NCBI GenBank assembly: GCA_002163005.1
Contig: MAAF01000070.1
Coordinates: forward strand, 1 to 64,000
Origin: Colwellia psychrerythraea
GTDB lineage: Bacteria; Pseudomonadota; Gammaproteobacteria; Enterobacterales; Alteromonadaceae
Direction: 5' to 3'
Length of the DNA: 64,000 bases
Below are positions 17,281 to 44,109 of this stretch, piece by piece (the first letter of the stretch is position 1; each line of letters starts with the position of its first letter). The notes beneath the pieces are model-generated. The model saw only the letters and a program-made list of their open reading frames with translations. It was not told where the DNA came from and did not search any database. The position numbers and the translations under genes are program-made.

Positions 17281-17295
17281 GAGAGTTAACTCCGA

Positions 17296-26405: not shown

Positions 26406-26467
26406 CTTATTGGAATTGTTATAATAAAGAGTATGAATAGTGGATGTAATATTATTGAGTGGTATAG

Positions 26468-28264
26468 ATGATTAAAACTACGGTATCTTTTGCTCTAGCA
26501 AGGTTTGTCTTTATTAGTTGTGTTGGTTTGGCGGTGATTATTACCAGCTTAGTAAACAATCATGTGGTTGAATTAGTTAATACTGAATATGAAAAAATAG
26601 CTAAAAGAGAAATTAATACCTTAAATAATAATTACCGTGTGCTTATTAATCACCATTTGATTTTATTAAAAGATCAATCCCAAGCCTCTCTTTTCGTGCA
26701 AGCCTTAATGCAGCCTAAAAGTAACTTGGGGAAAATAAAAGATTATATGGCGGGTTTAACATTGTTAGGTCAAAAGTATGATGAAACCCTGCTTGATTTT
26801 GAGGGCACAACATTACACTCTACCTTAGAGAATTCCGTTAACTATAAAAAATTTCCCTGGTTGAACGATATACTTTCTCAAAAAGAGAGTCACTCTATTC
26901 AAATCTTAACTATTGATGGGGAGTTTTTTTGGTGTATAGCGTTTCCTGTATTATATAACCAGCAAGTTGAAGGTGTTTTAGTCGCCAATATACCTTTAGA
27001 TACCATTCATTCAGGTCAAATAGATATTGATATGCTTGATGGTTTAATGATTGAAGTGGTGCAAGGATCACAAACCATTGCAACTTTCGGTAAACAGGTA
27101 ATAGGTGCTAAGCAAAGCATACAATGGCAAGATGTTGGGGTTAGCTTTAACTTTACGGTAGATGAAGCTAATAGGAATGATGCTTTATCTAACTTGGTTA
27201 TCCAATTGGCGAGCTATATTATCCTCGCCATAGTATTTACAACATTGCTGGCATACTTGTATGGTTATCGCTATTTTGTTAAACCCATCCTCGCTCTTTC
27301 TCAGTTAACCTCCAGCCTTGAAAAAGGTAACGAACCCATGGCGCTTCAAGAAGATTTAAGGTTTACTGAATTTTCCGGTTTATTTAAACAGTTTAATCAC
27401 ATGAGTGAAAAAGTAGCAAAAAGGGAACGAGCGTTAAAACAAAGTTATGAACAAATTTCAAATACTAATAAGGAGTTAAAGCAGAGTGAATCTCAACTGG
27501 TTCAATCTGAAAAAATGGCCAGCATTGGCGTACTGGCTGCGGGCGTAGCCCATGAAATCAATAACCCTATTGGTTTTATTCGCAGTAACTTAGAAGTATT
27601 AGAAGATTATTTTTCTGATATTGAAAAGTATTATCATGAATTCAATGAAACACTTGCCAGTGAAGAAGACAAAGAAAACCATAAGAAGTTAGCAAAAAAG
27701 TATGAACTAGAATTCCTCTTTAAAGACTCACCGCCACTGATAAAAAGTAGTATCTCAGGCGTTGACCGCGTTACTGAAATAGTCAAAAGCTTAAAAACAT
27801 TTGCTCGTATTGATCAGCCGGAAAAAGCATTGGTAGATATTAATGAAGGCTTGAGCGCAACACTTAATATGGTTCACAATGAGTTAAAATACTGTTGCAA
27901 AGTACATGTAGATTTACAGTCATTACCGCAAGTTCATGCATTTCCGGGGAAACTGAACCAAGTATTCATGAATTTATTGATAAATGCGGGGCAAGCCATA
28001 ACCGCTAAAGGCGATATCTTTGTCAGAACATTTGTTGAAGAAGGCAATATTGTTATTGAAATTGAAGACACTGGTAGTGGTATTGATTCTGAGAATATAA
28101 CGCAAATATTTACCCCTTTTTATACCAGTAAACCCATCGGTGAGGGCACCGGATTAGGCTTGTCGATTAGTCATCAAATAATTGAGCAACATAATGGCAA
28201 AATAACGGTTAAATCAGTGTTAGGCAAGGGAAGTTGTTTTTCCGTTTATATACCTATTAGTTGA
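26468..28264 (+). CDS. sensor histidine kinase with periplasmic domain, orphan
   Basis: A 598-residue inner-membrane kinase. The N-terminal membrane segment (about 9-28) and a second (about 240-265) bracket a periplasmic domain of about 210 residues that looks Cache-like. HAMP, a coiled coil and the phosphoacceptor His362 in AAGVAHEINNPIG follow, and the ATPase domain ends the protein (NLLINAGQA, DTGSGI, GTGLGLSI). The AHEINNP box places it with NtrB-type and ZraS-like kinases, many of which work with sigma54 regulators. There is no receiver or HPt domain and no response regulator gene alongside. The partner could be elsewhere. Confidence 0.85.
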   Translation: MIKTTVSFALARFVFISCVGLAVIITSLVNNHVVELVNTEYEKIAKREINTLNNNYRVLINHHLILLKDQSQASLFVQALMQPKSNLGKIKDYMAGLTLLGQKYDETLLDFEGTTLHSTLENSVNYKKFPWLNDILSQKESHSIQILTIDGEFFWCIAFPVLYNQQVEGVLVANIPLDTIHSGQIDIDMLDGLMIEVVQGSQTIATFGKQVIGAKQSIQWQDVGVSFNFTVDEANRNDALSNLVIQLASYIILAIVFTTLLAYLYGYRYFVKPILALSQLTSSLEKGNEPMALQEDLRFTEFSGLFKQFNHMSEKVAKRERALKQSYEQISNTNKELKQSESQLVQSEKMASIGVLAAGVAHEINNPIGFIRSNLEVLEDYFSDIEKYYHEFNETLASEEDKENHKKLAKKYELEFLFKDSPPLIKSSISGVDRVTEIVKSLKTFARIDQPEKALVDINEGLSATLNMVHNELKYCCKVHVDLQSLPQVHAFPGKLNQVFMNLLINAGQAITAKGDIFVRTFVEEGNIVIEIEDTGSGIDSENITQIFTPFYTSKPIGEGTGLGLSISHQIIEQHNGKITVKSVLGKGSCFSVYIPIS

Positions 28265-30280: not shown

Positions 30281-30293
30281 TATTAGCTAATAT

Positions 30294-31238
30294 TTATATA
30301 TGTTTGTAATGAATGGTATCTGCTAACCATTGACTCGTTTGTTGTATCCATGAAAGTCCGTATAGAGCAACTAAATGCTTAGGCTTTAATTTACAACGAG
30401 GATCTGATAATAGTTTTCTCGCTTGAGAAAAATGGCCATTACCAATATTAAGTTTTGCAAGATGGCACAAATGTGTCGCGCTATATTTAAGCATATATCT
30501 AGCCTTTTTTTCTTTTGTATTCTTTCTGGCTTCTTTCGTAATACGAACGCTAAAGCCGCACTCCGTTGATGGGATGTTAATTTTACTTGCTTGGTTTTGT
30601 GCATCTCTGTGATAAAGCAAATGAATATTAGGTGAATAGGCAATAGCAGCATTTAAAGCAACCCGACAAAATAAATCTTGGTCTTCACCAATAGGCTCAC
30701 TAAGCGGAAAACCACCAATTGATTCAAATAATGAGCGTTGAATTACCGCTGATGATACCATAAAAGGTAAATCACCTTTCGAGGCAATATTAAAGTAATC
30801 ATTTAATATTTCACCTTCAGGGTTAATATTTTTAAGTTTTATTTTAGCGTCACAATAATTGTTTTCAGATTCTACTATTTGATAGCGCGTACCAAAAAAC
30901 TGTGCTTGGGGGAACTTAACAATTAATCGTGCAACTTCGTCTAGAAATAATGGTAACCATTGGTCATCTGCATCTAAAAAGGCAATATATTCATGACTCG
31001 CTAAGGCAACACCGTTATTACGAGCCGCAGATACCCCCTGATTTTCCTGATGAACCAGCTTTACATTTTTTAAGTTAGCATTTTTGACTATGGCAGGTCC
31101 TTCATCTGTAGAGCCATCATCGATAACTATAATCTCTGCTGCCGGATACTTTTGCCACGCAATACTTTGTAGCGTTCTTAAAATATGTTCAGCTTTATTA
31201 AATAATGGAATAACTACGGTAAAATTTAAATTGTTCAT
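30294..31238 (-). CDS. family 2 glycosyltransferase
   Basis: A 314-residue inverting glycosyltransferase with a GT-A fold. It starts FTVVIPLFNKAEHILRTLQSI, has IVIDDGSTDEG for nucleotide-sugar binding, AARNNGV and the metal-binding DxD-type FLDADD, then GEDQDLFCR as the acceptor-side acid. It adds one sugar in polymer repeat-unit assembly; donor and acceptor cannot be told. Its first 41 bases overlap the end of the pyruvyltransferase gene, so the two are co-translated. GGAG lies 10 bp upstream of the start. Confidence 0.9.
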   Translation of the reverse strand: MNNLNFTVVIPLFNKAEHILRTLQSIAWQKYPAAEIIVIDDGSTDEGPAIVKNANLKNVKLVHQENQGVSAARNNGVALASHEYIAFLDADDQWLPLFLDEVARLIVKFPQAQFFGTRYQIVESENNYCDAKIKLKNINPEGEILNDYFNIASKGDLPFMVSSAVIQRSLFESIGGFPLSEPIGEDQDLFCRVALNAAIAYSPNIHLLYHRDAQNQASKINIPSTECGFSVRITKEARKNTKEKKARYMLKYSATHLCHLAKLNIGNGHFSQARKLLSDPRCKLKPKHLVALYGLSWIQQTSQWLADTIHYKHI

Positions 31239-32340
31239 TTTGAATACTCCAGTTAGATAAAGAATTTTTTAAAGCGTTGTCTACAGGTAAAGTCGGTTGT
31301 TGAAAGTTAGTTGAGATACCGAGTGTTATTTGCGAGACGATTTTTTCAATGTTTAGGTTAAATAAATCTATTTGATAGTCTTCTGGCATACCAACTTCGC
31401 TACACCAGCCTTTACATTTACTATGATAGTTAATAGATAAAACAGGGGTGTTAGCTAAGTAACCAAGAATAGAACCGTGTAAACGCATACTTAATATAGC
31501 TTTATAACCTGAAAGGTTGTTAAGTAACGCAATAGGGTTTGGATCATATTTTTTTATGCTCACGGGGATGTTTTTATCTAAACGGACAACAATATTGTTA
31601 TTGATTTTCCAATCACCTAATACGTTATGGCCGTTAAACTCTATTAGCGTTATAGGCTCGCCGGTCTGTTCATAAAGTTTGGTAATTAATTGAGCAAATT
31701 GTTTACATCTTTTTTCTTCTTCGACATTATCCGTTTTCCCCATGGCATCAATAGCAACTGAGCATAAGGTTAAGGCAATACCTTTACGTTTATTAGTCTT
31801 TGGCTTGTATTGATTCGAATATAATAACAATGGCGCTAAATCAAATGTTTTATGTACGTTTGCCTGAGGGGCAATGCTTTGCGCTATTTCTAAACTAATA
31901 TTATCTCTAACGCCTACGTAACCACATTCATTTAGAAATTTTGCACAAGACTGTTCAGCAGTGACAGAATTAAAGGGGCCGATACTAACACCTACCGCTA
32001 AGCTTTTTTTCTGGTTAGCTAAAGACATTAACTGCCTTTTTAGATTGATGTCGTTTTCGCTGTGTAACACTGAACCACCACCGAAAATGATACGTTTACT
32101 CTGAATGGCTGTTTTATAATGCAGTAACCTGTTTTGTCCTGGAAATTGCTGAGTAAACTTTAAAGGAAACTGATTATCACTTTGTGTTTCTCTGGTGTAA
32201 TCACCATATAAACCTACTTTAGTGTTATTACAACCCAGAATGTTTTTAGCGGCCCAAGCAGTGGCATACAGTAGGGCGTCATCACCGCTATTTCTCATGC
32301 CGTAATAACCGACTAAATAAGCATCATATTTCTTAAACAT
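31198..32340 (-). CDS. polysaccharide pyruvyl transferase family protein
   Basis: A 380-residue protein of the CsaB/WcaK type. It opens with YLVGYYGMRNSGDDALL (glycine-rich loop GxxNxGDxAL), has FGGGSVLHSE, VGVSIGPF and, near the C-terminus, SMRLHGSILGYLANTPVLSI, the conserved R-x-H. Members transfer pyruvate ketals from phosphoenolpyruvate to sugars and make the polymer acidic. It overlaps the upstream gene by 8 bp and the downstream gene by 41 bp. AGGAG precedes the ATG. Confidence 0.9.
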   Translation of the reverse strand: MFKKYDAYLVGYYGMRNSGDDALLYATAWAAKNILGCNNTKVGLYGDYTRETQSDNQFPLKFTQQFPGQNRLLHYKTAIQSKRIIFGGGSVLHSENDINLKRQLMSLANQKKSLAVGVSIGPFNSVTAEQSCAKFLNECGYVGVRDNISLEIAQSIAPQANVHKTFDLAPLLLYSNQYKPKTNKRKGIALTLCSVAIDAMGKTDNVEEEKRCKQFAQLITKLYEQTGEPITLIEFNGHNVLGDWKINNNIVVRLDKNIPVSIKKYDPNPIALLNNLSGYKAILSMRLHGSILGYLANTPVLSINYHSKCKGWCSEVGMPEDYQIDLFNLNIEKIVSQITLGISTNFQQPTLPVDNALKNSLSNWSIQNEQFKFYRSYSII

Positions 32341-33601
32341 ATTTTTCTCCTGATTTTAATGGGTTAAGCGCAATACCAATCCATACAAGTGCGGGCCAAT
32401 AAATAAAACTGAGAATTTCTAAGTTTTCAAAAAACGAGTAACAAATAAACACAACAACCATTAACGCTGCGGTATAACAAATTTGGCTTTTCAGGCTATT
32501 CCAAAACAAATAGATACTAGTAAAAGCTAAAGGAATTGCTAAGGCTAATAGCCCTACAATACCTTTTACAAATAACAAGCCGTACCAACTATGATGCGAG
32601 CCAATGGGCATGCTTTCAACAATCTTAGGGCCTTTTTCTACAATGCCATGACCCCAAATGGGGGCTTCTGATTCCCAGCGTTGCAATGCTAATACTTCTA
32701 AGGTATTACGTACGCGTGTTGAATGAGGCCGTGAAGCTTTGATATCTGCATAGCTATTGCTTAACCAATTAAATAAAGGCTCGCCTAATAATATGATGGC
32801 AGGAATAACTAAACCAATAAGGATTAATAACACGGGGTTTTTAAAATATTTATATAGGAAACATAACGGTGTTAAGGCGATATAAATAACCCATCCAGCC
32901 CGTGATTGAGATAACAAGCACATAACAAAACTACCTAACAAACCAGTCTTTCTCCAAAAAGCATCTTTTTCTTGGCAGGTGAAAATTAAAAATATACAAG
33001 CCATAAAACCTGCAGCTGGCGCCCAAGGGGTAAAAAACCGCCAACGTCCGGCGCCTGTTTCAGGGTTTAATCCGAATAAGCTCACTGTAAAAAACGTTTC
33101 GCCAGGGCCTCCAATGACTTTTAAGGGGGAAATAAATAAGTCGCCGTGAACACCAGCCTTATAAAGAACAAGGGTGACAACAGCGAAAATTAATGAATGG
33201 CATGAGACAATACATACGGCTCTAACGACTAATTGCGGCTTTATATCAACAAAGGCACCAATAAATAAAAATAGCGGCATCAGGGCCCAGCCTTTTGCCC
33301 AGCCAATAGATGATTTAATTGTTTTCGCTAGGCCTAAGTCCCAATTGGAATGCCCAATAAGTAAGGCTAATAGCATAAATGAACTTCCAATTATCCATAA
33401 CCAAACAATGGCAGGAATAATGGAAAACTTGTCTTTACCGTTGACATACCAGCGTAATAAAACCACGGCAAATATCAGCCAACCTAATACTGAACCCATA
33501 ATATAAAGACCACCAAAAGCGAAAAACGGATAGGTTAACGTTAACCCGAACCAGATTAATTTTTCTTCAGTAGAATTTGGATTAAGTTGTTTTGTTGTCA
33601 T
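32333..33601 (-). CDS. O-antigen polymerase/ligase-like membrane protein (Wzy_C type)
   Basis: An integral membrane protein of about 422 residues with 10-12 hydrophobic segments. It carries LSQSRAGWV and, in a large periplasmic loop, GSHHSWYGLLFVKGIVGL; these two elements are the marks of the O-antigen ligase/Wzy polymerase superfamily. In this locus it most likely polymerises repeat units flipped by Wzx. The ATG at 33601 is preferred over an in-frame TTG at 33631; neither has a clear ribosome site. Confidence 0.8.
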   Translation of the reverse strand: MTTKQLNPNSTEEKLIWFGLTLTYPFFAFGGLYIMGSVLGWLIFAVVLLRWYVNGKDKFSIIPAIVWLWIIGSSFMLLALLIGHSNWDLGLAKTIKSSIGWAKGWALMPLFLFIGAFVDIKPQLVVRAVCIVSCHSLIFAVVTLVLYKAGVHGDLFISPLKVIGGPGETFFTVSLFGLNPETGAGRWRFFTPWAPAAGFMACIFLIFTCQEKDAFWRKTGLLGSFVMCLLSQSRAGWVIYIALTPLCFLYKYFKNPVLLILIGLVIPAIILLGEPLFNWLSNSYADIKASRPHSTRVRNTLEVLALQRWESEAPIWGHGIVEKGPKIVESMPIGSHHSWYGLLFVKGIVGLLALAIPLAFTSIYLFWNSLKSQICYTAALMVVVFICYSFFENLEILSFIYWPALVWIGIALNPLKSGEKYV

Positions 33602-33806
33602 AGGAGTATCAGACCATATGTGATTAATCAAAAAGCTGTAATAAGCGTTTTGTGTTATTGCAGCTTACTTCGCCTATTGGCGAAAATGTTATTGTTACTC
33701 CTTAGTATTGCTAAAGGTGTGCCAAGAAGATTTTAATTATTCAATGTGTTGTTATTTATGGGGTATTTTGTTTTGTGTGGGTTTTGTTAAGAGCTAGGTA
33801 AGCCTG

Positions 33807-33847
33807 TGAATTGCAAAATAAAAAGGTTATTTTCATTTTGCAATTCA
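33807..33847. promoter_or_regulatory. 13-bp inverted repeat with 15-bp spacer, upstream of the wzy-like gene
   Basis: TGAATTGCAAAAT (33807-33819) and its exact complement ATTTTGCAATTCA (33835-33847) are separated by 15 bases. It lies about 205 bp upstream of the wzy-like ATG. The same core and the same spacer recur at 39014-39052, and a looser copy at 36703-36742. Confidence 0.7.
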
Positions 33848-33863
33848 TTATAATTGGTAGATA

Positions 33864-33880
33864 ATACCAATCCGTATAAG
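33864..33880. repeat. solo end of the dispersed repeat
   Basis: ATACCAATCCGTATAAG matches the terminal sequence of the element at 57101-57366. No body of the element is present. Confidence 0.6.
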
Positions 33881-33901
33881 TTAACAACTACTCAAACTAG
33901 T

Positions 33902-35293
33902 TCAGTCCTTTTTAAGTATAATTTTAATTAACTTTCTACGTTGCGATAAGATAATTAATCCTAAGGTGATAAATATAAACCCAGTTATTGCGCCAACAAA
34001 AGCAATAATGTTTTTAGGGCTACTCTGTTTCATTGGGTAAGATGGTGTTGTTAACATTTGCAGTACTGGGTAAGATGCAAAAACATCTGATTTACTCGCT
34101 TCAAGCCTTGCTGCTGCAGAAGTAAATATGGCTTCTGCCATGTTAAACTCTCTTTGTAAACGCTCTAATTCAACAATTTCTCGAGAGTAAATTTTTAATT
34201 GGTCTGCTAAATGTAGTGCTGAACGGCCTAAGTCTTCCAGCATTGACTCTTGGCCCTTTTGTTTTGCAAAAGCATCAATTAAATCAGCAAATAATCCAGA
34301 GCGTTTTGGGTTTAAATCTAAATTTAATGAGTTAAATATTTCATTAGAATTTACACCGTACATTTGGCTGCTTCTTTCGTTAATCGCAATACGGGTAAAA
34401 TTCAATCTTTTTTGTTGTGCTTTAACTTTAGGGTGATTAACGCCCCACCGTGAACTGTATTCGGTAAGTTGGGTTATGCTTTCTTTTAACTCAGTAATGT
34501 AGGCACGAAATTCTACATCAGATTGAAGTGCAAAAGCTTGTCCAGCTAACCTCGGCGATACACCTAGCTCTTCACTTAGTTGATATATATATTCTTGTAA
34601 TTGTTTTGCTTCGGCATTGACATAAAGGTGTTTTTCTCTAACACCAGAAAGGGTTCTCACCAATTGATCCATTTGGTCTGTTGAAACCACAATAGAACGT
34701 TGTTGAAAGTCAACAATGGCATTACGTGTTATGTTCATTCGTTCTCTATATTGGTCAAGCACTTGTTTAATACTTTGATCACGACGTAGCACTTCGTCGG
34801 CCCTTAAGTTACTTAGCTCATCTTGGAGAGACTCATATAAGGCAAGTGTTTTTTCTTGTGCTAACTCTTGACCATTAGCACTCATCTTAAGTGAAATAAT
34901 TGATGTTTGTTCGGTCAGTTTAATTTTAGGCTTACCAAGATCTTCTAGAGAAATATGTAATTTTTTTGCCGCACGTGCTCTTACGCCTCGGCTTGATAAC
35001 ATTTCTTTATAATTTACACGTGGGTTAAAGCTACCACCAGAAAAAGGCGTCGTAGTTTGTGACACAATTTGCCCAACATTAACCAAGGATACACTGTTAC
35101 TACTACCAGTACCGGGCAAGACCATTTCCATATCACTGGTAAATGAAGGAGCTGTATTTAAATAAATTAGCACAAGTAGCACAACCATTAAGTAAGAAAA
35201 TATACCCATAACCAAATAGGGCCGTTTCATTACCGTATATATTTTTGCTCTAAATAGTCCAAACTTTGTTAATGTAACAATAGGGTACTTCAT
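33902..35293 (-). CDS. Wzz/GumC-like chain-length or export-associated protein without kinase domain
   Basis: A 463-residue inner-membrane protein. One membrane segment lies near residues 27-47 and the second near 430-455, with a long helical periplasmic coiled coil between. The C-terminal part has the LTTPSYPMKQSSPKN proline-rich segment that leads into the second membrane helix in polysaccharide co-polymerases. There is no Walker motif or tyrosine cluster after the last helix, so the BY-kinase domain of Wzc is absent. AGGTGA precedes the ATG; it starts 7 bp after the wza-like stop. Confidence 0.88.
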   Translation of the reverse strand: MKYPIVTLTKFGLFRAKIYTVMKRPYLVMGIFSYLMVVLLVLIYLNTAPSFTSDMEMVLPGTGSSNSVSLVNVGQIVSQTTTPFSGGSFNPRVNYKEMLSSRGVRARAAKKLHISLEDLGKPKIKLTEQTSIISLKMSANGQELAQEKTLALYESLQDELSNLRADEVLRRDQSIKQVLDQYRERMNITRNAIVDFQQRSIVVSTDQMDQLVRTLSGVREKHLYVNAEAKQLQEYIYQLSEELGVSPRLAGQAFALQSDVEFRAYITELKESITQLTEYSSRWGVNHPKVKAQQKRLNFTRIAINERSSQMYGVNSNEIFNSLNLDLNPKRSGLFADLIDAFAKQKGQESMLEDLGRSALHLADQLKIYSREIVELERLQREFNMAEAIFTSAAARLEASKSDVFASYPVLQMLTTPSYPMKQSSPKNIIAFVGAITGFIFITLGLIILSQRRKLIKIILKKD

Positions 35294-35300
35294 AAATCAC

Positions 35301-36578
35301 CTATAATAATTTGAATGGAATAATAAGATCAGTAAGGGTTTTGGCAATATCTCGATAATTGGTAATATCTGAGTCGTAACAAGCAATTGCATCATTGGGC
35401 ATAAGGTAAGGGTTAATTTGCCCTTTATTCGGCATTGTCATCAACTGTTCCACTGAACGTTCGACTACTTGTGTTTCGCCCGTTATCGGGTTTTTACTTG
35501 CGAGTACAACTCTACGTGCTGCATTAGTCCATTCTTTACCACCAACGCAATTAGCAGAAACAGCTGCCTGAAGTAAACGAGTGCCATAAGGCAGATTTGT
35601 TGAAAATCGTCCAATAGCGGCACTAGAGTTATCGCCTGAAGAATCAATCAGATTAGACATAAATACACGAAAACCTTTAGGTGTAATTTGACTTGGTCTA
35701 ACTAAATGAGCTTGAAAACAACCAGTACTAGGTACTATTACTCGGTCACCTGCGACTAAGGGATAATCCGTAACTAGGTTACCACTTAGCATACCTGTCA
35801 TATCTATCTGTACTTGCCAGCCATTACGTATCAGCATTATTTGATCTAATTTTGCATCAGGTCTAATACCTGATGCTGCTCTAATCGCTTCAGATAATAA
35901 ACGTGTGGTTGAATAATCACCGTAAGCTTCTAAATGTTCAGAATTTTGAACACCGGTAGGTTTCTTATTGATCAATACGGTACCTGGTTGAAAAACAGCA
36001 CCCGCAACAGCTACTTCAATTGATGACCAATTCAACACGTGAATGGTTACGCTCGCACTAGCAGGTTGAAATATTTCTGCCCTAACTAGAGCAAGTTCAA
36101 TTTTGGCTTCCAATTTATTGGTTGTCGCTCCGCCAGCCTCAATAACACCAATAATCGGTAATTTGACATAACCTGCATTATCAACAATGTAGCGACCATT
36201 AAAGCCTTCGCCATCTTCTATAATCACTTCCACTAAATCTCCAGGACTTAACAGTAAACCTTGTGCCAGAATAGGATCGTTTTTGGCAGAAGCTTTCATG
36301 TTTGACATGTTTAAATTTATTGGCTTATCAGTTCTATAGTTTAATGCGGCACCCATATTTTGAAACCGACTACAATTTAAACCATCAGCAAAGACACTAT
36401 CTGGTGCTTTTTCATGAATAAAGTCATCACCATTATCTGCAGGCATGCCATAAAATCGAAGCGCGGACTTATCCATATCTTCTGAAGAATGCCTAGCACA
36501 ACCATGTGAAAGCAAAGCTGCTAGCAAGGTAATAAGTACTGGTATCATTTTGTAATTTTTAAATGTGTGATACAGCAT
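35301..36578 (-). CDS. Wza-like polysaccharide export lipoprotein
   Basis: An outer-membrane export protein of 425 residues. The lipobox LLSHGC follows a short hydrophobic signal. The polysaccharide-export domain begins near LLSPGDLVEVIIEDGEGFNGRYIVDNAGYVKLPIIG, and SLBB-type segments follow (VAVAGAVFQPGTV, LVAGDRVIVP). The ATG at 36578 is chosen because GGAG sits 6 bp upstream; a GTG at 36590 would put that site inside the gene. It is longer than Wza (about 379). Translation runs on into the Wzz-like gene. Confidence 0.88.
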   Translation of the reverse strand: MLYHTFKNYKMIPVLITLLAALLSHGCARHSSEDMDKSALRFYGMPADNGDDFIHEKAPDSVFADGLNCSRFQNMGAALNYRTDKPINLNMSNMKASAKNDPILAQGLLLSPGDLVEVIIEDGEGFNGRYIVDNAGYVKLPIIGVIEAGGATTNKLEAKIELALVRAEIFQPASASVTIHVLNWSSIEVAVAGAVFQPGTVLINKKPTGVQNSEHLEAYGDYSTTRLLSEAIRAASGIRPDAKLDQIMLIRNGWQVQIDMTGMLSGNLVTDYPLVAGDRVIVPSTGCFQAHLVRPSQITPKGFRVFMSNLIDSSGDNSSAAIGRFSTNLPYGTRLLQAAVSANCVGGKEWTNAARRVVLASKNPITGETQVVERSVEQLMTMPNKGQINPYLMPNDAIACYDSDITNYRDIAKTLTDLIIPFKLL

Positions 36579-36702
36579 AATATTCTCCACGACGACGTTA
36601 ACTATACAAACAGTAATTGCACTTAACGTACCAAGTGTGCTTTATGTATTAGTTATTGTTTTTAATGGTTTTTATGTTTGATGATAGAGGGGGTTTAATC
36701 GT

Positions 36703-36742
36703 GTTTTGCAATGTGCAATACGTTTTCTTTATTTTGCAAAAT
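36703..36742. promoter_or_regulatory. imperfect copy of the TTGCAAAAT inverted repeat, upstream of wza
   Basis: TTTTGCAATG near 36704-36713 and the self-complementary ATTTTGCAAAAT at 36731-36742, with a third GCAATA between them. The centres are 28 bp apart, against 27 in the two perfect copies. It is about 125-165 bp upstream of the wza-like ATG. The remaining gap to 36903 holds one hairpin (36846-36878). Confidence 0.5.
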
Positions 36743-36845
36743 GCTATTTCAAGGAAATAGCCAAAATAGGTAGGAATGCATAGTAAAAAAGTGAATTGAT
36801 AATGAGTTTTATCAATTCACTTTAACCGTTACATAGCTAATGTTT

Positions 36846-36878
36846 TATACCCAGGCATCTTCAAGTGGCTTGGGTATA
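36846..36878. repeat. dispersed hairpin, TATACCCA type
   Basis: TATACCCAGGC, an 11-base loop, GCTTGGGTATA. It is a shorter relative of the hairpin at 48358-48404. Lying 26 bp after the stop of the sugar transferase gene, it may also help end that transcript. Confidence 0.7.
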
Positions 36879-36903
36879 ATTATGCTATTTCGCCAAGAGG
36901 TTA

Positions 36904-37584
36904 TTAATAAGCACCTTTTGCACTTAACACGGCAGGAATGGTGAGTGCTATTATTTTACAATCCATTAAAAAGCTTTGTTGCATAATATAGGTTTTGTCT
37001 AACTGTAATTGCTCTTCAAAATTAGTATCTGCTCGGCCAGATATTTGCCATAAACCAGTGAGCCCCGGCTTGGTAAACAATCTTGTTTGAACGACATTAT
37101 CATATTCATAAGTTTCAATAGATAATGCAGGTCTAGGTCCAACCAAACACATATCTCCTCTAATAATATTAAATAACTGTGGGATCTCATCTATTGAGTA
37201 TTTTCTGATAAACTGCCCAACTTTGGTAATTCTTGGGTCATTAATATACTTTTTACAAACACCTTCACGAGAGCTTTGTGTAGGATCCGGCTCATGATAA
37301 TTAGGGTCTGTTTTTAAATACATAGAACGGAACTTATACATTTTGAAATGTCGACCGTTCTCACCCACTCTTGTTTGAGAGAATAAGGCACTACCTGAGC
37401 TTTCAGTTTTGATCAAAATGAGCACTAATAAAAGTAATGGGCTTATCAATAGTAACGCAATGAGTGCAACTGTTTGTTGTAAGATAACCGGGATCCCTTT
37501 ATGTTTATAATTTTTATCAATGACTTTGTCAGTACTAGTAAATAAAGCGTTATTTTTAACGTGTTGTAAAATTTGAATAGCCAT
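36904..37584 (-). CDS. undecaprenyl-phosphate sugar phosphotransferase (initiating, short ExoY type)
   Basis: A 226-residue monotopic enzyme that loads the first sugar phosphate onto undecaprenyl phosphate. It has one hydrophobic hairpin (about residues 37-60), then MYKFRSMYLKTDP, the basic and catalytic Arg-Asp region SIDEIPQLFNIIRGDMCLVGPRPA, and KPGLTGLWQISGR. All family motifs are present, in contrast to the fused domain encoded just upstream. Its ATG overlaps the upstream stop by one base (TAATG), and AGGGG is well placed. Confidence 0.93.
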   Translation of the reverse strand: MAIQILQHVKNNALFTSTDKVIDKNYKHKGIPVILQQTVALIALLLISPLLLLVLILIKTESSGSALFSQTRVGENGRHFKMYKFRSMYLKTDPNYHEPDPTQSSREGVCKKYINDPRITKVGQFIRKYSIDEIPQLFNIIRGDMCLVGPRPALSIETYEYDNVVQTRLFTKPGLTGLWQISGRADTNFEEQLQLDKTYIMQQSFLMDCKIIALTIPAVLSAKGAY

Positions 37585-38897
37585 TATTTTTCCCCTGTAT
37601 TCACTAAACCAAGAATGAAAGTTCTATATAAAAAAAGTGGATTACCAATAACATAACGGTTGAATTTTGCTCTAGGCTCTTGTAATAAACGCCAAACCCA
37701 TTCCATACCTACTTCTCTTAACCACATTGGTGAACGGGAAATATTGCCAGAATAAAAATCAAATAGTCCTCCTACTGCTAATGCGGTTTTACATTGCAAT
37801 TTATCTCTGTGTTCGAGTAACCATTTCTCCTGTGCAGGTGAGCCCATAGCCACTAATAAAATGTCGCAGCCACTGTTATTTATTGATTTGATAATTTGTT
37901 CAGAATTATTATCTTCGTTATAACCATGCTCGGTACCAGCAATGTTAAGACCAGGGAATTGATGGCATAATGCACTCGCTGCTTGTTTAGCAATACCGGG
38001 CTTAGCCCCAAAAAAATATAAAGATTGATTACTTTCAACACAGCTTCTACAAAGGTGGGGCAACATGTCCGTACCATTATTATTGCCATTAAGAAGAAAA
38101 CCAGCCTTTTTCGCCGCTAATCTCATGCCTGAACCATCAGCAAATAAAGCATTAGCATTTGATAGTTGATTAAAGAATGTAGGGTTGCTTATAGACAAGT
38201 TAATTGAATGTACGTTGATAAAAAAACCTATTTGAGTTTTATTTTGTGGTGTCTGAATGTGTGTTATCCAGTCAACAGCTTCTGCCATAGATGTGTTTTT
38301 AACGTTTAAACCAAATAAAGATAAGTACTTAGCTTTTTTAAATTTCTTTATTGCTTGACCATAAAAAATAACTGACATGAAACTTTTAAGAATAAGTGCT
38401 AAATAATCAGCTGCATTGCCATTAAGTTGCTGTTCAAGTAGTTGCTCTTTACTCATTATTGTTAAACCCGTTTTAAGGTGTAAATCATACAAACTAAAAA
38501 GGCCGGGTTTACATTTAATTTGATTCATAACACAAAACTGTATATCGGGTGACAACCTGTGCGTTAGAGGAATACCGCAAAAAGAAATTTTTCCTGAGTA
38601 AATATCAAATAAAACGGCGGTTTTGACCCAAATACCGCAACTAAAGGTATGTAACATCACTGGTCTGCTTAAAGCATCTGTTTTATGTTGTATTGAAAAT
38701 AAGCTTCTTTTAGTGCATAGAGCCAACACTATATTGATTAGGAAGCAGGGGAGAAGGATTAAAATAAGCATAAGTGCAATAGGGCGATCGATAAAGGTGC
38801 CACTGTATTGATGATTAATGGAATCATAATGCTTAAGGGATTGAGTCATCGTTTGAAGTGAGAATTTAGTATTTATCATTTCAGTTAACCTAATCAT
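37584..38897 (-). CDS. WecG/TagA-type glycosyltransferase fused to a degenerate sugar-transferase domain
   Basis: A 437-residue protein. Residues about 195-420 are a complete GT26 domain: ADGSGM, FFGAKPG, VAMGSPAQEKWL, VGGLFDFYSG and MEWVWRLLQEPR. GT26 enzymes add the second sugar to a polyprenyl-linked first sugar. Residues about 35-180 line up with an initiating sugar transferase: hydrophobic DRPIALMLILILLP, GKISFCGIPL in place of GDMSLVGPRP, KPGLFSLYDL in place of KPGITGL, and a hydrophobic end. The KFRSM and ExDELPQ segments are missing, so this half should be inactive. The start may be the ATG at 38897 or, with a better AGG spacing, 38879. Confidence 0.85.
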   Translation of the reverse strand: MIRLTEMINTKFSLQTMTQSLKHYDSINHQYSGTFIDRPIALMLILILLPCFLINIVLALCTKRSLFSIQHKTDALSRPVMLHTFSCGIWVKTAVLFDIYSGKISFCGIPLTHRLSPDIQFCVMNQIKCKPGLFSLYDLHLKTGLTIMSKEQLLEQQLNGNAADYLALILKSFMSVIFYGQAIKKFKKAKYLSLFGLNVKNTSMAEAVDWITHIQTPQNKTQIGFFINVHSINLSISNPTFFNQLSNANALFADGSGMRLAAKKAGFLLNGNNNGTDMLPHLCRSCVESNQSLYFFGAKPGIAKQAASALCHQFPGLNIAGTEHGYNEDNNSEQIIKSINNSGCDILLVAMGSPAQEKWLLEHRDKLQCKTALAVGGLFDFYSGNISRSPMWLREVGMEWVWRLLQEPRAKFNRYVIGNPLFLYRTFILGLVNTGEK

Positions 38898-39013
38898 TGA
38901 GGGTTAACTGATACGTTGCTTAAGCTATGCCAATCCGTATTTTTATTTTATGCTATTGTAAGTAAAGGTTTTTTTTGCTTGTTGTTTTTTGTATTGAAAG
39001 TGGAGGTAATAAA

Positions 39014-39052
39014 ATATTGCAAAATAGAAATTAGATTATCATTTTGCAATAT
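39014..39052. promoter_or_regulatory. 12-bp inverted repeat with 15-bp spacer, upstream of the wecG fusion
   Basis: ATATTGCAAAAT (39014-39025) and its exact complement ATTTTGCAATAT (39041-39052), with a 15-base spacer. It lies 117-155 bp upstream of the wecG-fusion start and just after the stop of the preceding transferase gene. Confidence 0.7.
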
Positions 39053-39061
39053 ATTTAATGT

Positions 39062-39793
39062 TTACAGGCAGATAAGTTTTGAGTAGATAGATAGAATTAT
39101 ATTTGTTTCTCGTGACAGAATATCTTCATTAAGTTTCCTACCTGAAATCAACTTGTTTTTATTAACGAAAACTAAAAGCCGGGCTGATAGAAAAAAAACA
39201 ATTTTATGAAAGAAGTTATTAAGAAAGCCGGTTCTCATCGGGCCACAATTGCGATGACGAATATAATCTTTTAACTGATAATCGGATGTGTTATTCCACT
39301 TCTGCTCGAGCTCTACTATAAAGGGGACTCCTTTACTGAATTCAATAACATGGCCATTCTCCCCCCAACCCACATCGTTTTCTATTTGTACTTTATCAAA
39401 GCGGGCATCAATAACCCGTGTAAGCCATGTTATGGTTTTTACATTGTTTCTCGCTAAAAGTACCCCTGAATTGAATCTATTAGAATCCCCTTTTGCCATA
39501 TAAACATACTTTTCCTCTTGAAATACTTCGGTTAAATCAGGGCAATTTTGATTAACCATGGTATCGGCATCCAAAAATAATACATTCTCATACCCAGACA
39601 ATAAAGCCGCTCGCATTAATGTCAATTTAAGCCAGCAGCACTCTACTCCTAGGGCAGAAACAAAAGGACGCGTTACTGCTTGGTGAACATAGCCGTATCT
39701 TCGTGCATAATTAAGATGAGATTTCAGCTCCCGTTGATACATCCATTGATAACCGTTTAGAGCAATACTGAGTATTAATGTTTTATGTTGCAT
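39062..39793 (-). CDS. glycosyltransferase with a DxD motif, GT8/GT34-like
   Basis: A 243-residue protein with a GT-A-like core: LILSIALNGYQWMYQREL, LFLDADTMV (the DxD metal site), RFNSGVLLARN and NDVGWGENGHVIEF. The pattern resembles retaining transferases of the galactosyl GMA12/MNN10 or GT8 kind; exact family uncertain. It is the first minus-strand gene of the locus. I chose the ATG at 39793, with AAGG 8 bp upstream; a GTG at 39802 is also in frame. Confidence 0.75.
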   Translation of the reverse strand: MQHKTLILSIALNGYQWMYQRELKSHLNYARRYGYVHQAVTRPFVSALGVECCWLKLTLMRAALLSGYENVLFLDADTMVNQNCPDLTEVFQEEKYVYMAKGDSNRFNSGVLLARNNVKTITWLTRVIDARFDKVQIENDVGWGENGHVIEFSKGVPFIVELEQKWNNTSDYQLKDYIRHRNCGPMRTGFLNNFFHKIVFFLSARLLVFVNKNKLISGRKLNEDILSRETNIILSIYSKLICL

Positions 39794-39929
39794 ATATTTC
39801 ACCTTTGCAGTTAATCAATAATTTTTCTCTAATTTAAAGTTAACAAGCAATATTTGCTCCATATATTTCATTAAAGCATTTATTCAGCATTATTATTTGC
39901 TATACGATTGAATTTCAATATGTTTTGCT

Positions 39930-39941
39930 ATTTTGCATAAT
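39930..39941. promoter_or_regulatory. weak single copy of the ATTTTGCA motif
   Basis: ATTTTGCATAAT lies 137 bp upstream of the first minus-strand transferase gene, with no clear partner arm at the expected distance. It may be a half-site or chance in AT-rich sequence. Confidence 0.3.
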
Positions 39942-40109
39942 TAACGGTTATATTTATTTATCAACCATTTATTAATGATGAATATCAACTATGATTTATC
40001 TATAGAAACAATTAATAACTATTATAGTTATAACTGTCTTTAGTTATTGATATTTAGGCTTTATTTGTTATTTATTAAGTAAAAGTTATCAATTAAACAA
40101 CAGTTATTC

Positions 40110-40131
40110 AACACTCTACAGAGTGTTTTTT
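40110..40131 (+). terminator. terminator-like hairpin in front of the sigma54-type regulator gene
   Basis: AACACTCT, a tight loop and AGAGTGTT followed by further T residues, ending 46 bp before the next ATG on the same strand. Its place in front of a gene suggests either an attenuator in the leader or the end of a small RNA transcribed from the 39.8-40.1k gap. The rest of that 380-bp gap is AT-rich without another recognisable feature. Confidence 0.5.
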
Positions 40132-40176
40132 GAACGTACTTTACATGATCAATAATTGCAATTTTAAGGATTGGAA

Positions 40177-41643
40177 ATGCAAAACTTAAATAAATCTAGA
40201 ATTTTATTTGTAGATGACGAACCAGAAATTCTACGTTCACTTGAGCGTATTGCGAAAAAACTTGATGCTGTTATTTTAACCGCGGCTAGCGGGCAAGATG
40301 CACTTGATATTATTAATGAGTGTCCTGTAGATGTCATCGTGTCTGATTTTAATATGCCAAATATGGATGGCAATCAATTGTTGGAGCAGGTCGCTATAGT
40401 GTCACCAGAAACTGTGCGTATGGTGCTGACAGGTCATGGCGATATGGAAATGATTGTTAATTTAATTAATCATGGCCATATTTGGGGCTTCCTTCAGAAG
40501 CCCTGGGATAACTTCGATCTTATAGTTAAGTTAAAACAAGCATTACAACTACAACAGGTTTTGGCCGAACGAACTTTAATGCGAAGAACAATTGACCAAT
40601 ATCAAAAATATCACAAGTCTAATTTTGAAGGCTTCATAGGCGATTCAATGGCAATGCAATTTGTTTACTCATGTATTGAGCAAAGTGCACCTAGTAATGC
40701 CTCTGTCTTTATCACAGGACCAAGTGGCTCAGGTAAAGAAGTTGCTGCACAAGCCATTCATCGGTTAAGCAAAAAGAAAAATGGGCCCTTTATAGCGCTT
40801 AATTGTGCTGCTATTCCGTCAGAATTAATGGAATCAGAAATTTTTGGCCATATTAAAGGTGCATTCTCTGGCGCTGTTTCTAACCGAGATGGGGCAGCCT
40901 CTCTGGCAAATGGTGGTAGTCTATTTCTGGATGAAATCGGTGAAATGGATATTGGTTTGCAAGCAAAGTTATTACGATTTATCCAAACGGGTTGTTTTCA
41001 AAAGGTTGGCAGTGGAAAAGAAGAAAAAGTGGATATTCGCTTTATTAGTGCAACGAATAGAGAGCCACAAATTGCTATCGCTGAAAATAAATTACGTGAA
41101 GATCTCTTTTATCGCTTAAACGTTATTTCAATAGATTTACCGGCGTTAAATGAGCGAGACAACGATATTCTTAAATTGGCTGAACATTTTCTAAGCCACT
41201 TTAGTGAGATTGAGGGTAAAGTATTTGCTGGATTCTCTTCTGGTGCAGAAGCGTTAATAAAGTCCTATTCGTGGCCGGGTAATGTACGCCAATTACAAAA
41301 TATAGTTCATAGCTCAACCGTTATGTCTGAAGGACCACTAATTTCTGAAAAAATTATTGCTCAGCAACTTGGTAGACAAAGTAAACAAGTAGAGCCAGCG
41401 TTTAATTCACAAAAAGAAAGCGTCATACCTTCAATAACCCAGACCAAGCAAAATACTAATGTTCATCAGGTTAATGAGTCGCGATCAGCAATTATTACAC
41501 TGGCTGAAGTTGAAAAACAAACCATTGAACAAGCCATAGACTTGTGTCAAGACAATATTGTAAAAGCAGCGAGTGAATTGGGTGTGAGCCCATCAACGCT
41601 CTACCGCAAAATCCAGCAATGGCAAACATCGCCAGTAGAATAG
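40177..41643 (+). CDS. sigma54-dependent response regulator (NtrC type)
   Basis: A 488-residue activator. The receiver domain has DDE at 13-15, phosphoacceptor Asp57 in VSDFNMPNMDG and lysine in KPWDN. The AAA+ domain has Walker A GPSGSGKE (181-188), GAFSGA (228-233, a serine variant of the sigma54-contacting GAFTGA) and LDEIGEM. The C-terminal Fis-type helix-turn-helix is ELGVSPSTLYRKIQQW. I chose the ATG at 40177 (AAGGA 6 bp upstream). It is divergent from the transferase operon and no kinase is adjacent. It probably controls the polysaccharide locus, from location only. Confidence 0.9.
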   Translation: MQNLNKSRILFVDDEPEILRSLERIAKKLDAVILTAASGQDALDIINECPVDVIVSDFNMPNMDGNQLLEQVAIVSPETVRMVLTGHGDMEMIVNLINHGHIWGFLQKPWDNFDLIVKLKQALQLQQVLAERTLMRRTIDQYQKYHKSNFEGFIGDSMAMQFVYSCIEQSAPSNASVFITGPSGSGKEVAAQAIHRLSKKKNGPFIALNCAAIPSELMESEIFGHIKGAFSGAVSNRDGAASLANGGSLFLDEIGEMDIGLQAKLLRFIQTGCFQKVGSGKEEKVDIRFISATNREPQIAIAENKLREDLFYRLNVISIDLPALNERDNDILKLAEHFLSHFSEIEGKVFAGFSSGAEALIKSYSWPGNVRQLQNIVHSSTVMSEGPLISEKIIAQQLGRQSKQVEPAFNSQKESVIPSITQTKQNTNVHQVNESRSAIITLAEVEKQTIEQAIDLCQDNIVKAASELGVSPSTLYRKIQQWQTSPVE

Positions 41644-41662
41644 CCGTATTCCTAAGATGCAA

Positions 41663-41709
41663 ATAACTACCGTAATGATTTTCATCATGCAAATAATCAC
41701 GGTGGTTAT
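41663..41709. terminator. imperfect hairpin after the regulator gene
   Basis: ATAACTACCGTAATGATT and AATAATCACGGTGGTTAT pair over about 15 positions with mismatches, 20 bp after the stop codon. There is no good T-tract; it may be a weak terminator or a small repeat. Confidence 0.4.
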
Positions 41710-41816: not shown

Positions 41817-43082
41817 ATGCTGTTGCTACCTTTATTTAGAATACAATTTAATTCAGTTATTGAGCTCTTATCAAATACCATTTGGTTACTTAGTGCAGAA
41901 TTTGCAGCAAAAATATCCCGAATTTTCACCATTATCGTGCTGGCTGCTCAATTATCACCAACGTCATACGGTACTGCTATGTTAGCTTTAGCATTTCACG
42001 ATGTTTTTGGCTTGTTGTTGCGTGCAGGCGTTGGCAGTCAAATTATTAATTGTAAACCACATCAATTAGAAAATTTTGCTAAAAATGGCATCTTAATCCA
42101 ATGGGGTATTTGCTTAACCATAGTAATAGCTCAATTCAGCTCAGCAAGTTACCTTTCATCACTTTATGATAATGATAATATTACTATTTTATTACAAGTT
42201 ATGGCTGTAATTTACCTTTTATATCCGTGGGTAAGTATTAAAATTTTTTTATTACAGCGTGAAAATAAAATGCGTTGGTTCAGTATCAGAAATGGCCTGT
42301 GCGTAATCATTGAAAATTGTACAATCGCGATTGCCGCTTTATTAGGGGCCGATATCTTATCAGTGGCTTTGGGTAAAGTTGCTTTTTCGATCTTTTGGTT
42401 ATTTTTATTTTCATTCTCACCAGTCAACTCATATGGTGTTGGTTGTAATCCCTTTATTATTCATCAGATGCTGCAAACATCAGGCAAACTGTTTAATACT
42501 GAATTTTTACGTGGTATTCGACTTCACGCTGATACTTTCATTGCTGGTCGGTTATTAACACCTGAACTCTTTGGCTTTTACACGTTTGCGAAGAACGCAG
42601 GTGTAGGCTTAAGTCAGTCAATTAGCCAAGTCTATATAAGTGCCTTATTCCCGTACTTGTGTAAATTAGAGCGAAAAGGTCAGTTATTAATACAGCAAAA
42701 AAAAGTGTTTGTTATTTCTTTAGGCATTGGCTTGCTGTTTGTTATTCAAGCGCTATTAGCGCCTATATATGTCCCTATTTTATTTGATGAAAAATGGTCT
42801 TCAGCGATACCTATCATCACAATATTATGCTTAGTCGCACTCCCTAATTTAATAATCGATATCGTGTGTTGCATGCAGCGTGTAACAGAGCAATACCATC
42901 GGGAAACCATTACTCGATTAGTGTGTCTTTTCATCAGCCTAGTAACGCTTTTTATCTTTACTCCCAATGAGCCTATGGAGTTCGCTTTGGTGATCTTTTT
43001 TAGTAGTTTATTTTGTTTGATTCCAATTTATTTGATTAATGTAATAAAGCCCTTTGGTAACAATTTACGTACTGTAATTTGA
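41817..43082 (+). CDS. Wzx-like polysaccharide flippase
   Basis: A 421-residue membrane protein with about 12 hydrophobic segments. It belongs to the MATE/MOP flippase group by pattern: AEFAAKISRIFTIIVLAAQLSPTSYGTAMLA at the N-terminus (given here as the type A-x-y-GTAMLALAFHD), and LLTPELFGFYTFAKNAG in the middle. It would move undecaprenyl-linked repeat units across the inner membrane before polymerisation. AGGAA is 7 bp upstream of the ATG. It is followed 13 bp later by a glycosyltransferase gene. Confidence 0.85.
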   Translation: MLLLPLFRIQFNSVIELLSNTIWLLSAEFAAKISRIFTIIVLAAQLSPTSYGTAMLALAFHDVFGLLLRAGVGSQIINCKPHQLENFAKNGILIQWGICLTIVIAQFSSASYLSSLYDNDNITILLQVMAVIYLLYPWVSIKIFLLQRENKMRWFSIRNGLCVIIENCTIAIAALLGADILSVALGKVAFSIFWLFLFSFSPVNSYGVGCNPFIIHQMLQTSGKLFNTEFLRGIRLHADTFIAGRLLTPELFGFYTFAKNAGVGLSQSISQVYISALFPYLCKLERKGQLLIQQKKVFVISLGIGLLFVIQALLAPIYVPILFDEKWSSAIPIITILCLVALPNLIIDIVCCMQRVTEQYHRETITRLVCLFISLVTLFIFTPNEPMEFALVIFFSSLFCLIPIYLINVIKPFGNNLRTVI

Positions 43083-43095
43083 TAGGAGAAAATGC

Positions 43096-44109
43096 ATGAA
43101 AGCTAATTCAATTCCGGTAGTATCGGTCGTTATTCCAATGTATAACGTTGAAAAATATATCGAGCAAAGTATCAATAGTGTCCTGAATCAAAGTTACCAT
43201 CATTTTGAGCTTATTCTCGTTGATGATGGTTGTGTTGATAAGACCCTAGATATAGTGAATAACTTTACCGATCCTCGCATTAGAATTGTTCGCCAAGAAA
43301 ACAGAGGTTTGTCGGGTGCGCGAAATACAGGTATAGAGTCTGCTAGGGGAATATACATTGCCTTATTGGACGCAGATGATTATTGGGCGGCTGACAAATT
43401 AACTAAGCATATTCAACATTTGAGTGCTAATCCTAAAGTGGGTATTAGCTATTGCCCGTCATTATTCATTGATGAAGAAGGTGAGCTTTTAGGTGTTGGA
43501 CAATTCCCTAAGCTTAAGAATATCACTAAACAGCATATTTTTTGTCGAAACCCGATTGGCAATGGTTCTTCACCTGTGATTAGAAGATCGGTATTGTCAG
43601 AAGTTGGTTATTATGGCATTAAAAAAGACAAATACAGAAGAATGTATTTTGATGAAAGTTTAAGACAATCAGAAGATATTGAACTTTGGACACGGATAGC
43701 ATTAAAAACAAAATGGCAATTTGAAGGCATTAGTACCCCGTTAACTTATTATCGAGTTAACGATTCAGGCCTGTCGGCCGATGTAGATAAACAGTTTGCA
43801 AGTTGGCAACATGCGGTCATGTTAAACAAAGCGTCTGACCCAGCTTTCTTTAAACAATTTTACAGCTTAGCAAAAGCGTATCAGTTAAGGTATTTAGCCA
43901 GAAGAGCCGTACAATCAAAAAGTAAGGTCGCTGCATTCAAACTTATTCACCAAGCAATATACTGTAATTATAGAATTATCCTGCAGGAGCCTAATCGTAC
44001 TATCATGACTTTGTGTTGCGCTTGGTTGAAGTTTTTACCCAGTAAGTTGTACAGTCGTATAGAGAAATTTGCTATGTTGAATTTTGGTAACAGTTCAATT
44101 AAGCAGTAA
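43096..44109 (+). CDS. family 2 glycosyltransferase
   Basis: A 337-residue GT-A transferase: VVSVVIPMYNVEKYIEQSI, LILVDDGCVDKTLD, GLSGARNTGI, ALLDADDYW and the acceptor-side SEDIELWTRI. All core motifs of GT2 are present. Sugar specificity cannot be read from sequence. AGGAG lies 7 bp upstream of the ATG. It is probably co-transcribed with the flippase gene and adds another sugar of the repeat unit. Confidence 0.9.
   Translation: MKANSIPVVSVVIPMYNVEKYIEQSINSVLNQSYHHFELILVDDGCVDKTLDIVNNFTDPRIRIVRQENRGLSGARNTGIESARGIYIALLDADDYWAADKLTKHIQHLSANPKVGISYCPSLFIDEEGELLGVGQFPKLKNITKQHIFCRNPIGNGSSPVIRRSVLSEVGYYGIKKDKYRRMYFDESLRQSEDIELWTRIALKTKWQFEGISTPLTYYRVNDSGLSADVDKQFASWQHAVMLNKASDPAFFKQFYSLAKAYQLRYLARRAVQSKSKVAAFKLIHQAIYCNYRIILQEPNRTIMTLCCAWLKFLPSKLYSRIEKFAMLNFGNSSIKQ

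Follow-up and report, generated by a model that had tools for sequence, protein, structure and literature searches.

The subject of this work is a stretch of 64,000 nucleotides from Colwellia psychrerythraea (contig MAAF01000070.1, positions 1 to 64,000; hereafter the window), in which short inverted repeats lie in front of minus-strand genes of an exopolysaccharide (EPS) locus. Very probably, as judged from sequence comparison, these repeats are upstream activating sequences (UAS), i.e., enhancers, of sigma-54 promoters and are bound by the response regulator encoded at position 40171. The arrangement is most likely a sigma-54 polysaccharide regulon of the SypG kind whose operators are LuxO-like and would be bound by the regulator. 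A LuxO/SypG-like activator combined with enhancer sites, sigma-54 promoters and an EPS locus is a known kind of system; the lineage, the operator use and the EPS cassette appear to be undescribed so far.

Inverted repeats and sigma-54-like promoters in the EPS locus

The sequence TTGCAAAAT-N15-ATTTTGCAA occurs at two places in the window, upstream of wzy and of wecG, both times as a perfect inverted repeat, and nowhere else in the draft genome (4.6 Mb in 121 contigs, 94% complete). When spacers of 10-20 bp were permitted, the window matches still numbered two, compared with none in 100 dinucleotide shuffles. A third copy upstream of wza has a spacer of 16 instead of 15 bp, and the weak half-site TTGCATAAT at 39933 is part of a dyad with three mismatches. 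The 9-mer core alone is not enriched in the window (six copies versus 3.48 expected from shuffles), and all six copies fall inside the three repeat sites. An earlier note on this DNA had described two perfect repeats with a 15-bp spacer, a looser third copy and a weak half-site near 39930, each upstream of a minus-strand gene (wzy-like, wza, wecG and the first transferase) and without a match in the rest of the window, and all of this was recovered here (Table 1). Perfect inverted repeats with arms of at least 12 bp are not rare in the window (17, nested ones included, versus 0, 0, 2, 0, 0 and 0 in six simulated sequences), and therefore the inverted-repeat character is not itself the signal. 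Across the draft genome, two matches to the repeat had no mismatch, one had two and ten had three, in total 13 versus six for the reversed control. At 30240-30280 and 36788-36823, intergenic in the EPS locus, lie further perfect inverted repeats that are unrelated to the motif and are perhaps terminators or hairpins.

The earlier note had made no mention of promoters; each of the four sites turned out to be paired with a sigma-54-like promoter on the minus strand. A scan with the sigma-54 (-24/-12) consensus (consensus weights instead of a trained matrix, maximum score 15.5) identified a match scoring at least 12 on the correct strand 71-86 bp downstream of all four sites, and none on the opposite strand at 50-110 bp. 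Such matches amount to 26 on the minus and 25 on the plus strand of the window. A random window position has a minus-strand match of at least 12 at 60-100 bp with P = 0.017, and an intergenic position outside the locus with P = 0.005, the score threshold and distance range having been chosen after the sites had been seen. The features of a sigma-54 promoter with an enhancer are present, i.e., the -24 GG/-12 GC spacing, a site some 70-90 bp upstream and an rpoN gene in the genome; the wecG promoter is weak. Repeat and promoter were also combined into a single pattern (TTGCA-N19-28-TGCAA-N72-102-TGGYAY-N7-GCW), which has three matches in the genome, all within the EPS locus, versus none for a reversed control that is soft because it contains CG.

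Table 1. Genes, sites and promoter-like elements of the EPS locus and the adjoining candidate sensor pair, in window coordinates
Feature	Position	Strand	Remark
Periplasmic binding protein (PF13458) and HisKA/HATPase kinase, candidate sensor pair	25176..28264	(+)	proposed from linkage only
Glycosyltransferase family 2 (GT2)	30294..31238	(-)	profile match
Polysaccharide pyruvyl transferase	31198..32340	(-)	profile match
wzy-like (Wzy_C)	32333..33631	(-)	listed start TTG
Sigma-54-like promoter TGGCACACCTTTAGCA, wzy	33709..33724	(-)	score 14; 86 bp from putative UAS
Putative UAS pair 1, upstream of wzy	33807..33847 (core 33811-33843)	(-)	13-bp perfect inverted repeat
Chain-length-determinant-like protein (counted as wzc), behind wza	33902..35293	(-)	weak EpsF / pepcterm_ChnLen matches
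wza-like polysaccharide export protein	35301..36590	(-)	profile match
Sigma-54-like promoter TGGTACGTTAAGTGCA, wza	36618..36633	(-)	score 13.5; 72 bp from putative UAS
Putative UAS pair at wza (third copy)	36706..36739	(-)	spacer 16 bp
Bacterial sugar transferase, behind wecG	36904..37584	(-)	PF02397
WecG/TagA/CpsF transferase	37584..38897	(-)	domain at residues 249-415; long N-terminal part without Pfam match
Sigma-54-like promoter TGGCATAGCTTAAGCA, wecG	38917..38932	(-)	score only 12; 84 bp from putative UAS
Putative UAS pair at wecG	39014..39052 (core 39017-39049)	(-)	12-bp perfect inverted repeat
First glycosyltransferase	39062..39802	(-)	PF03407; GT8 match below cut-off
Sigma-54-like promoter TGGAGCAAATATTGCT, first glycosyltransferase	39846..39861	(-)	score 13; 71 bp from half-site
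Weak half-site TTGCATAAT (as read on the plus strand)	39933..39941	(-)	upstream of first glycosyltransferase gene
LuxO/SypG-like enhancer-binding response regulator, proposed binder	40171..41643	(+)	receiver, AAA and Fis helix-turn-helix
wzx-like flippase and second GT2, behind regulator	41817..44109	(+)	

Conservation of sites and promoters in relatives

Of 147 sampled family genomes, own included, 50 contain the combined pattern, with 68 matches altogether. Fourteen of these matches belong to the six genomes (G000, G003, G025, G076, G107 and G130, own included) whose regulator is at least 76% identical, each with at least one match at EPS genes; in G076 and G107 regulator and sites are on different draft contigs, and the G107 regulator is a fragment. 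The earlier note had proposed that the element controls this locus specifically and that the NtrC-type regulator next to it is a natural candidate to bind it; the confinement of the combined pattern to the locus and its presence at EPS genes in all six genomes are in line with this proposal. All three sites, together with promoter-like elements, occur in Colwellia demingiae and Colwellia sp. 12G3. Close relatives retain both sites and promoters. In more distant ones, many of the orthologous operons, but by no means every one, still have sigma-54-like promoters and half-sites; the exact repeat is mostly lost there, and the 15-bp geometry is not retained. The spacer, which had been described as fixed at 15 bp, in fact ranges from 12 to 19 bp in relatives. 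In G139, wza is preceded by a perfect dyad, and a promoter-like match lies 171 bp from it.

According to the earlier note, a motif at background rate would speak against the idea. This applies to the dyad when it is taken without the promoter and any A/T is allowed in its arms; in this form it is near background with matches in 45 of the 147 genomes versus 38 with a control match and has one extra copy in the own genome, at C39; the combined element, however, lies above background in the carriers of the regulator. It is very improbable that the elements are AT-rich inverted repeats that arose by chance and have no function: the dyad frequencies and the abundance of perfect repeats in the window would fit this, but the restriction of the combined pattern to one locus and the retention of site and gap at three orthologous promoters do not. 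The half-site TTGCAWWWT located 30-160 bp upstream of sigma-54-like matches of at least 13.5 was found four times in the window versus 0.2 expected, 18 times versus 1.8 in close relatives, and 29 times versus 2.8, a tenfold enrichment, around regulators of 52-63% identity.

The distances between the elements also bear on the possibility that the repeats are RNA hairpins, i.e., terminators or attenuators between gene runs, which we consider improbable. The minus-strand RNA would fold strongly at wzy (-19.7 kcal/mol, z -7.6) and wecG (-11.7 kcal/mol, z -5.0), the wecG repeat lies 8-15 bp past the preceding stop codon in seven of nine loci, and a weak U-rich stretch (TATTTTAT) follows it in the window and in the C. 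demingiae locus (L069). However, no folding is seen for the copy at wza (z -0.6), the other seven wecG loci lack such a stretch after the repeat, and in three relatives (G025, L072 and L073) the wecG arms are mismatched inside the 9-bp core with TTGCA retained. In addition, the distance to the preceding stop codon varies at wzy and wza (standard deviation, sd, 63 and 24 bp), whereas that to the promoter is steady, with mean gaps of 83 bp at wzy (sd 5, n = 7) and 71 bp at wza (sd 4, n = 6). At wecG, both distances are steady (sd 10 to the stop codon; promoter gap 86 bp, sd 8, n = 9), which is also compatible with a hairpin. A structured wzy leader was considered as well and dropped (folding z -2.4 in the window, -1.1 at the G130 wzy and +0.3 at a copy of it), and an Rfam search of positions 28000-46000 gave no match.

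To determine which genes carry the enhancer-type arrangement, orthologs in 37 chosen loci were surveyed for a promoter of at least 12.5 plus TTGCANNNT. Both were present at wecG in 14 of 27, at wza in 13 of 27 and at the first transferase in 9 of 26 cases, followed by wzx (8/31), wzy (7/31) and the pyruvyl transferase (7/30). The counts were 0/31 for wzc, 0/26 for the sugar transferase, 1/29 and 1/32 for the first and second GT2, 0/8 each for kinase and binding protein, and 0/36 for the regulator itself. Heads of gene runs often have promoter and half-site and internal genes hardly ever. Regardless of the half-site, 18 of 27 wza orthologs have a sigma-54-like promoter, compared with none of 31 wzc orthologs. 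With its score of 12, the wecG promoter of the window falls below the cut-off and was counted as a miss. The set excludes several orthologs, mostly duplicates of G-handle contigs (e.g., L070, L076, L079, L081, L084, L095 and L096), and its rows are not independent, as L072 is the L230 contig and L083, L086, L089 and L091 are all Pseudoalteromonas luteoviolacea. In many relatives the wzy reading frame begins at the end of wzc and therefore an own promoter would be unneeded. In the window, comparison with L069 and L103 suggests that the true wzy start is probably some 30 bases downstream of the listed TTG.

A fourth site in G130 (L219:9930-10560), located about 277 kb from the EPS locus before an acyltransferase-3 gene, has a 33-bp repeat identical to the window's wzy repeat. 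It was rejected as an unlinked member of the regulon: the region duplicates the promoter of wzy together with its leader and a 5' fragment of the gene (431 bp, 79.8%), apparently a promoter carried to a new gene, and because of this origin it provides no independent evidence.

The regulator at 40171 and its predicted operators

The 40171 regulator consists of a receiver domain with conserved phospho-Asp, a Sigma54_activat domain and a Fis-type helix-turn-helix (HTH), and its best solved relative is LuxO (5ep0). With 475.2 bits against the NCBIfam LuxO profile NF041946, it is the best match in the genome but remains below the cut-off of 800, and the profile search found no LuxO above the family cut-off in this genome. 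Its HTH reads VSPSTLYRKIQ, compared with VSPSTIYRKLQ in LuxO, i.e., two conservative changes in the presumed recognition helix; identity over the HTH is 50-54% to three Vibrio LuxO and 38-42% to four SypG-type rows. A quick tree built from 106 sequences placed the regulator in a clade of 40 rows (SH-aLRT 94, below the 95 mark, with long branches present) and did not group it with Vibrio LuxO, which stands with the SypG-type rows in a separate group of 64. All ten aligned members of the clade have GAFSGA as their sigma-54 contact loop; on the LuxO/SypG side it is GAFTGA in eight of nine and GSFTGA in the ninth.

Orthologs of at least 52% identity are patchy within the family (18 of 147 genomes, own included). 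The nearest named regulator, that of C. demingiae, is 94% identical, with records very near the window possibly excluded, and P. luteoviolacea has an ortholog of 55-56% identity. Judging by the best 80 of 587 orthologs, the association of regulator, wzx and GT2, with other EPS genes beside them in variable order, extends over Colwellia, Thalassotalea, Pseudoalteromonas, Alteromonas, Marinibactrum and others. Some loci are cut by the end of the stretch and show only part of it, and no EPS genes were found in L081, L094 and L097.

The enhancers may also be bound by another superfamily member encoded elsewhere in the genome, which we regard as unlikely. Nine further LuxO-profile matches exist, the best at C9 with 380 bits, and neighbourhood is no proof of binding; the 40171 regulator, however, is the genome's top match, is encoded within the conserved EPS cassette, and its orthologs of at least 76% identity coincide with the combined element at EPS genes in six of six genomes.

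The LuxO enhancer site has been published as TTGCAWWWTGCAA (PMC10162802), and LuxO ChIP-seq in Vibrio cholerae yielded ttgcaaaatgcaa at qrr1, with the site TTGCAAAATGCAA (PMC10328515). The repeat core equals the first nine bases of TTGCAWWWTGCAA, and thus the motif has a precedent in the literature that the earlier note had not recognized. Read from the outside inwards as 13-mers, the wzy repeat is TTGCAAAATAAAA plus TTGCAAAATGAAA and the wecG repeat TTGCAAAATAGAA plus TTGCAAAATGATA, each with centres 20 bp apart, and the wza repeat is TTGCAATGTGCAA plus TTGCAAAATAAAG with centres 21 bp apart; its left 13-mer differs from the LuxO site at one position. The best 13-mers at wzy, wza, wecG and the first transferase have 1, 1, 2 and 3 mismatches to the LuxO consensus, compared with a mean of about 4 after shuffling. 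Positions 9-13 of the TTGCA half-sites near promoters of close relatives lean to TGCAA, with C at position 11 in 30% (16% elsewhere) and A at position 13 in 58% (32% elsewhere). The repeat reads best as two putative 13-bp dimer sites. We prefer this to one dimer on a single wide dyad in view of the 3-bp distance between LuxO half-sites and of the tendency of the inner halves towards TGCAA.

As a positive control, the SypG motif TTCTCANNNTGMDWN was sought in seven Vibrio syp-type loci and matched without mismatch at seven sigma-54-like promoters in five of them; no such perfect match occurs at the window sites. Conversely, no LuxO-type match with fewer than two mismatches was among the Vibrio matches listed, which comprise promoters with at most two mismatches to either motif. 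The control scan tells SypG and LuxO operators apart.

The DNA itself shows the sites and promoter-like elements, how these are spaced and conserved, and the domains and HTH similarity of the regulator; from this we infer the following course of binding, phosphorylation, looping and activation. Each repeat would be a pair of LuxO-type 13-bp dimer sites, with centres about two helical turns apart, a strong outer TTGCA and a degenerate inner half. A kinase, possibly that of the candidate sensor pair, would phosphorylate the 40171 regulator, which would then bind the repeats as dimers and form an AAA hexamer; the 70-90 bp of DNA in between would be looped and the sigma-54 polymerase remodelled at the four promoters. 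Within presumed operon limits, these may drive four units: wzy with the pyruvyl transferase and GT2, wza with the chain-length gene, wecG with the sugar transferase, and the first transferase. Helical phasing of the gap between repeat and promoter (p 0.02 for distinct gaps at a period of 10.75; 0.058 when clustered; 0.001 with a free period of 9-13, with the vector length still rising beyond 11 bp) is not claimed because the sites are related by descent.

Several observations weigh against enhancers bound by the 40171 regulator. On the side of the DNA, the sigma-54 weights come from a consensus and not from a trained matrix, the wecG promoter reaches only 12 of 15.5, the reversed control is soft, as mentioned, and about half of the head genes in the 37-locus set lack promoter plus half-site at the thresholds used. 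None of the window 13-mers matches the LuxO consensus in full, and the SypG motif is found at 1, 2, 1 and 3 mismatches (wzy, wza, wecG and first transferase; shuffled about 2.7). The family genomes outside the six carriers, 141 in number, still hold 54 combined matches (0.38 each), and G106 is the only one to show such a match inside the locus among 12 sampled family genomes whose ortholog is 52-60% identical. The half-site enrichment is likewise present around regulators of at most 45% identity (13 versus 1.1) and for this reason does not single out the regulator clade. On the side of the protein, the contact loop is GAFSGA instead of GAFTGA, and nine other LuxO-profile regulators (E ≤ 1e-80) are encoded in the genome.

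Related systems, the candidate sensor pair and neighbouring genes

The proposed regulon resembles SypG and the syp locus of Vibrio fischeri, in which an enhancer-binding response regulator encoded in a polysaccharide locus acts on the sigma-54 promoters of that locus. The details of this action were reportedly worked out by Ray and colleagues in 2013. The two differ in the operator, which is TTCTCANNNTGMDWN for SypG and has the core TTGCA in the EPS locus, and in the regulator, which shares 36-42% identity with SypG-type proteins from seven syp-like loci of Vibrio (L222-L228, assigned by gene content, STAS protein and motif) and belongs to a separate clade. Apart from the regulator, only a 33% identical sugar transferase in L225 is shared with these loci at the cut-offs used; syp gene content was not found around the regulator. 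To LuxO and the qrr genes, the likeness consists of the operator core seen at V. cholerae qrr1, a similar HTH and sigma-54 promoters; however, the sites here are at EPS operons and those of LuxO at small RNAs, the regulator reaches 475 of 800 bits in a separate clade, and mostly one half of each 13-mer is good, whereas LuxO operators are full palindromes.

PrsR, the PEP-CTERM regulator of the PrsK/PrsR system, is very unlikely to be the owner of the motif. Its sites, sometimes repeated, likewise accompany sigma-54 promoters near EPS-linked genes of Proteobacteria including Colwellia psychrerythraea and lie about 63 bp upstream of them, but their motif, of 17 nt, ends in TTTACA (Haft et al., 2006; PMC1569441). 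Furthermore, the 40171 regulator is a distinct protein with 355.8 and 350.2 bits compared with a PrsR (TIGR02915) cut-off of 502.6, and a protein above this cut-off (785.8 bits) is encoded elsewhere in the genome, at C67. PrsR was therefore rejected as owner of the motif on profile scores and the different published motif.

Literature searches on the 9-mer and on the control of EPS by sigma-54, RpoN or LuxO in Colwellia, Pseudoalteromonas or Alteromonas brought up no paper recognized as a description of this regulon, with few subscription papers covered. Most likely, the control resembles quorum-sensing and biofilm regulation of vibrios but represents a separate lineage in several marine bacteria. 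An unexplained repeat would thereby become a testable regulon for an EPS cassette of Colwellia, Thalassotalea, Pseudoalteromonas, Alteromonas and others, suggesting that the LuxO operator core serves polysaccharide operons beyond quorum-sensing small RNAs, and culturable relatives such as P. luteoviolacea would gain a named candidate EPS regulator.

The combination of a periplasmic binding protein with an orthodox histidine kinase at 25176 is reminiscent of LuxP/LuxQ. Of the 18 ortholog-carrying genomes, 9 have a kinase match (E ≤ 1e-60) no more than 10 kb away from the regulator, as read from coordinates; this linkage is weak because most matches span the kinase core only and 64 of 147 genomes have one. 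The pair itself was found in 6 of 53 further loci (L073, L082, L094, L097, L103 and L229), a count limited by locus ends and by some contigs being present twice, and not in C. demingiae within its available stretch. We tentatively propose, as a possibility with the odds against it, that a third LuxO/SypG branch redeploys the quorum-sensing operator to switch a patchy marine EPS cassette directly, with no small RNA, and that its input in the window and a few relatives is the LuxPQ-like pair. If true, LuxPQ-like ligand sensing beside the locus would feed straight into polysaccharide synthesis. In another genome (G048:C148:25171-28570), a regulator of 40% identity is found beside a kinase 60% identical to that of the window, with a TTGCA-type dyad between them.

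A response regulator with an HD_5 domain (HD-GYP kind) adjoins the EPS locus at 44999-46285 and is also present in C. demingiae. The region 14108-24958 holds a molybdopterin oxidoreductase operon with a NapC/NirT cytochrome, a delta-type chaperone and a TorS-type sensor kinase, and looks like a system for trimethylamine N-oxide (TMAO) respiration.

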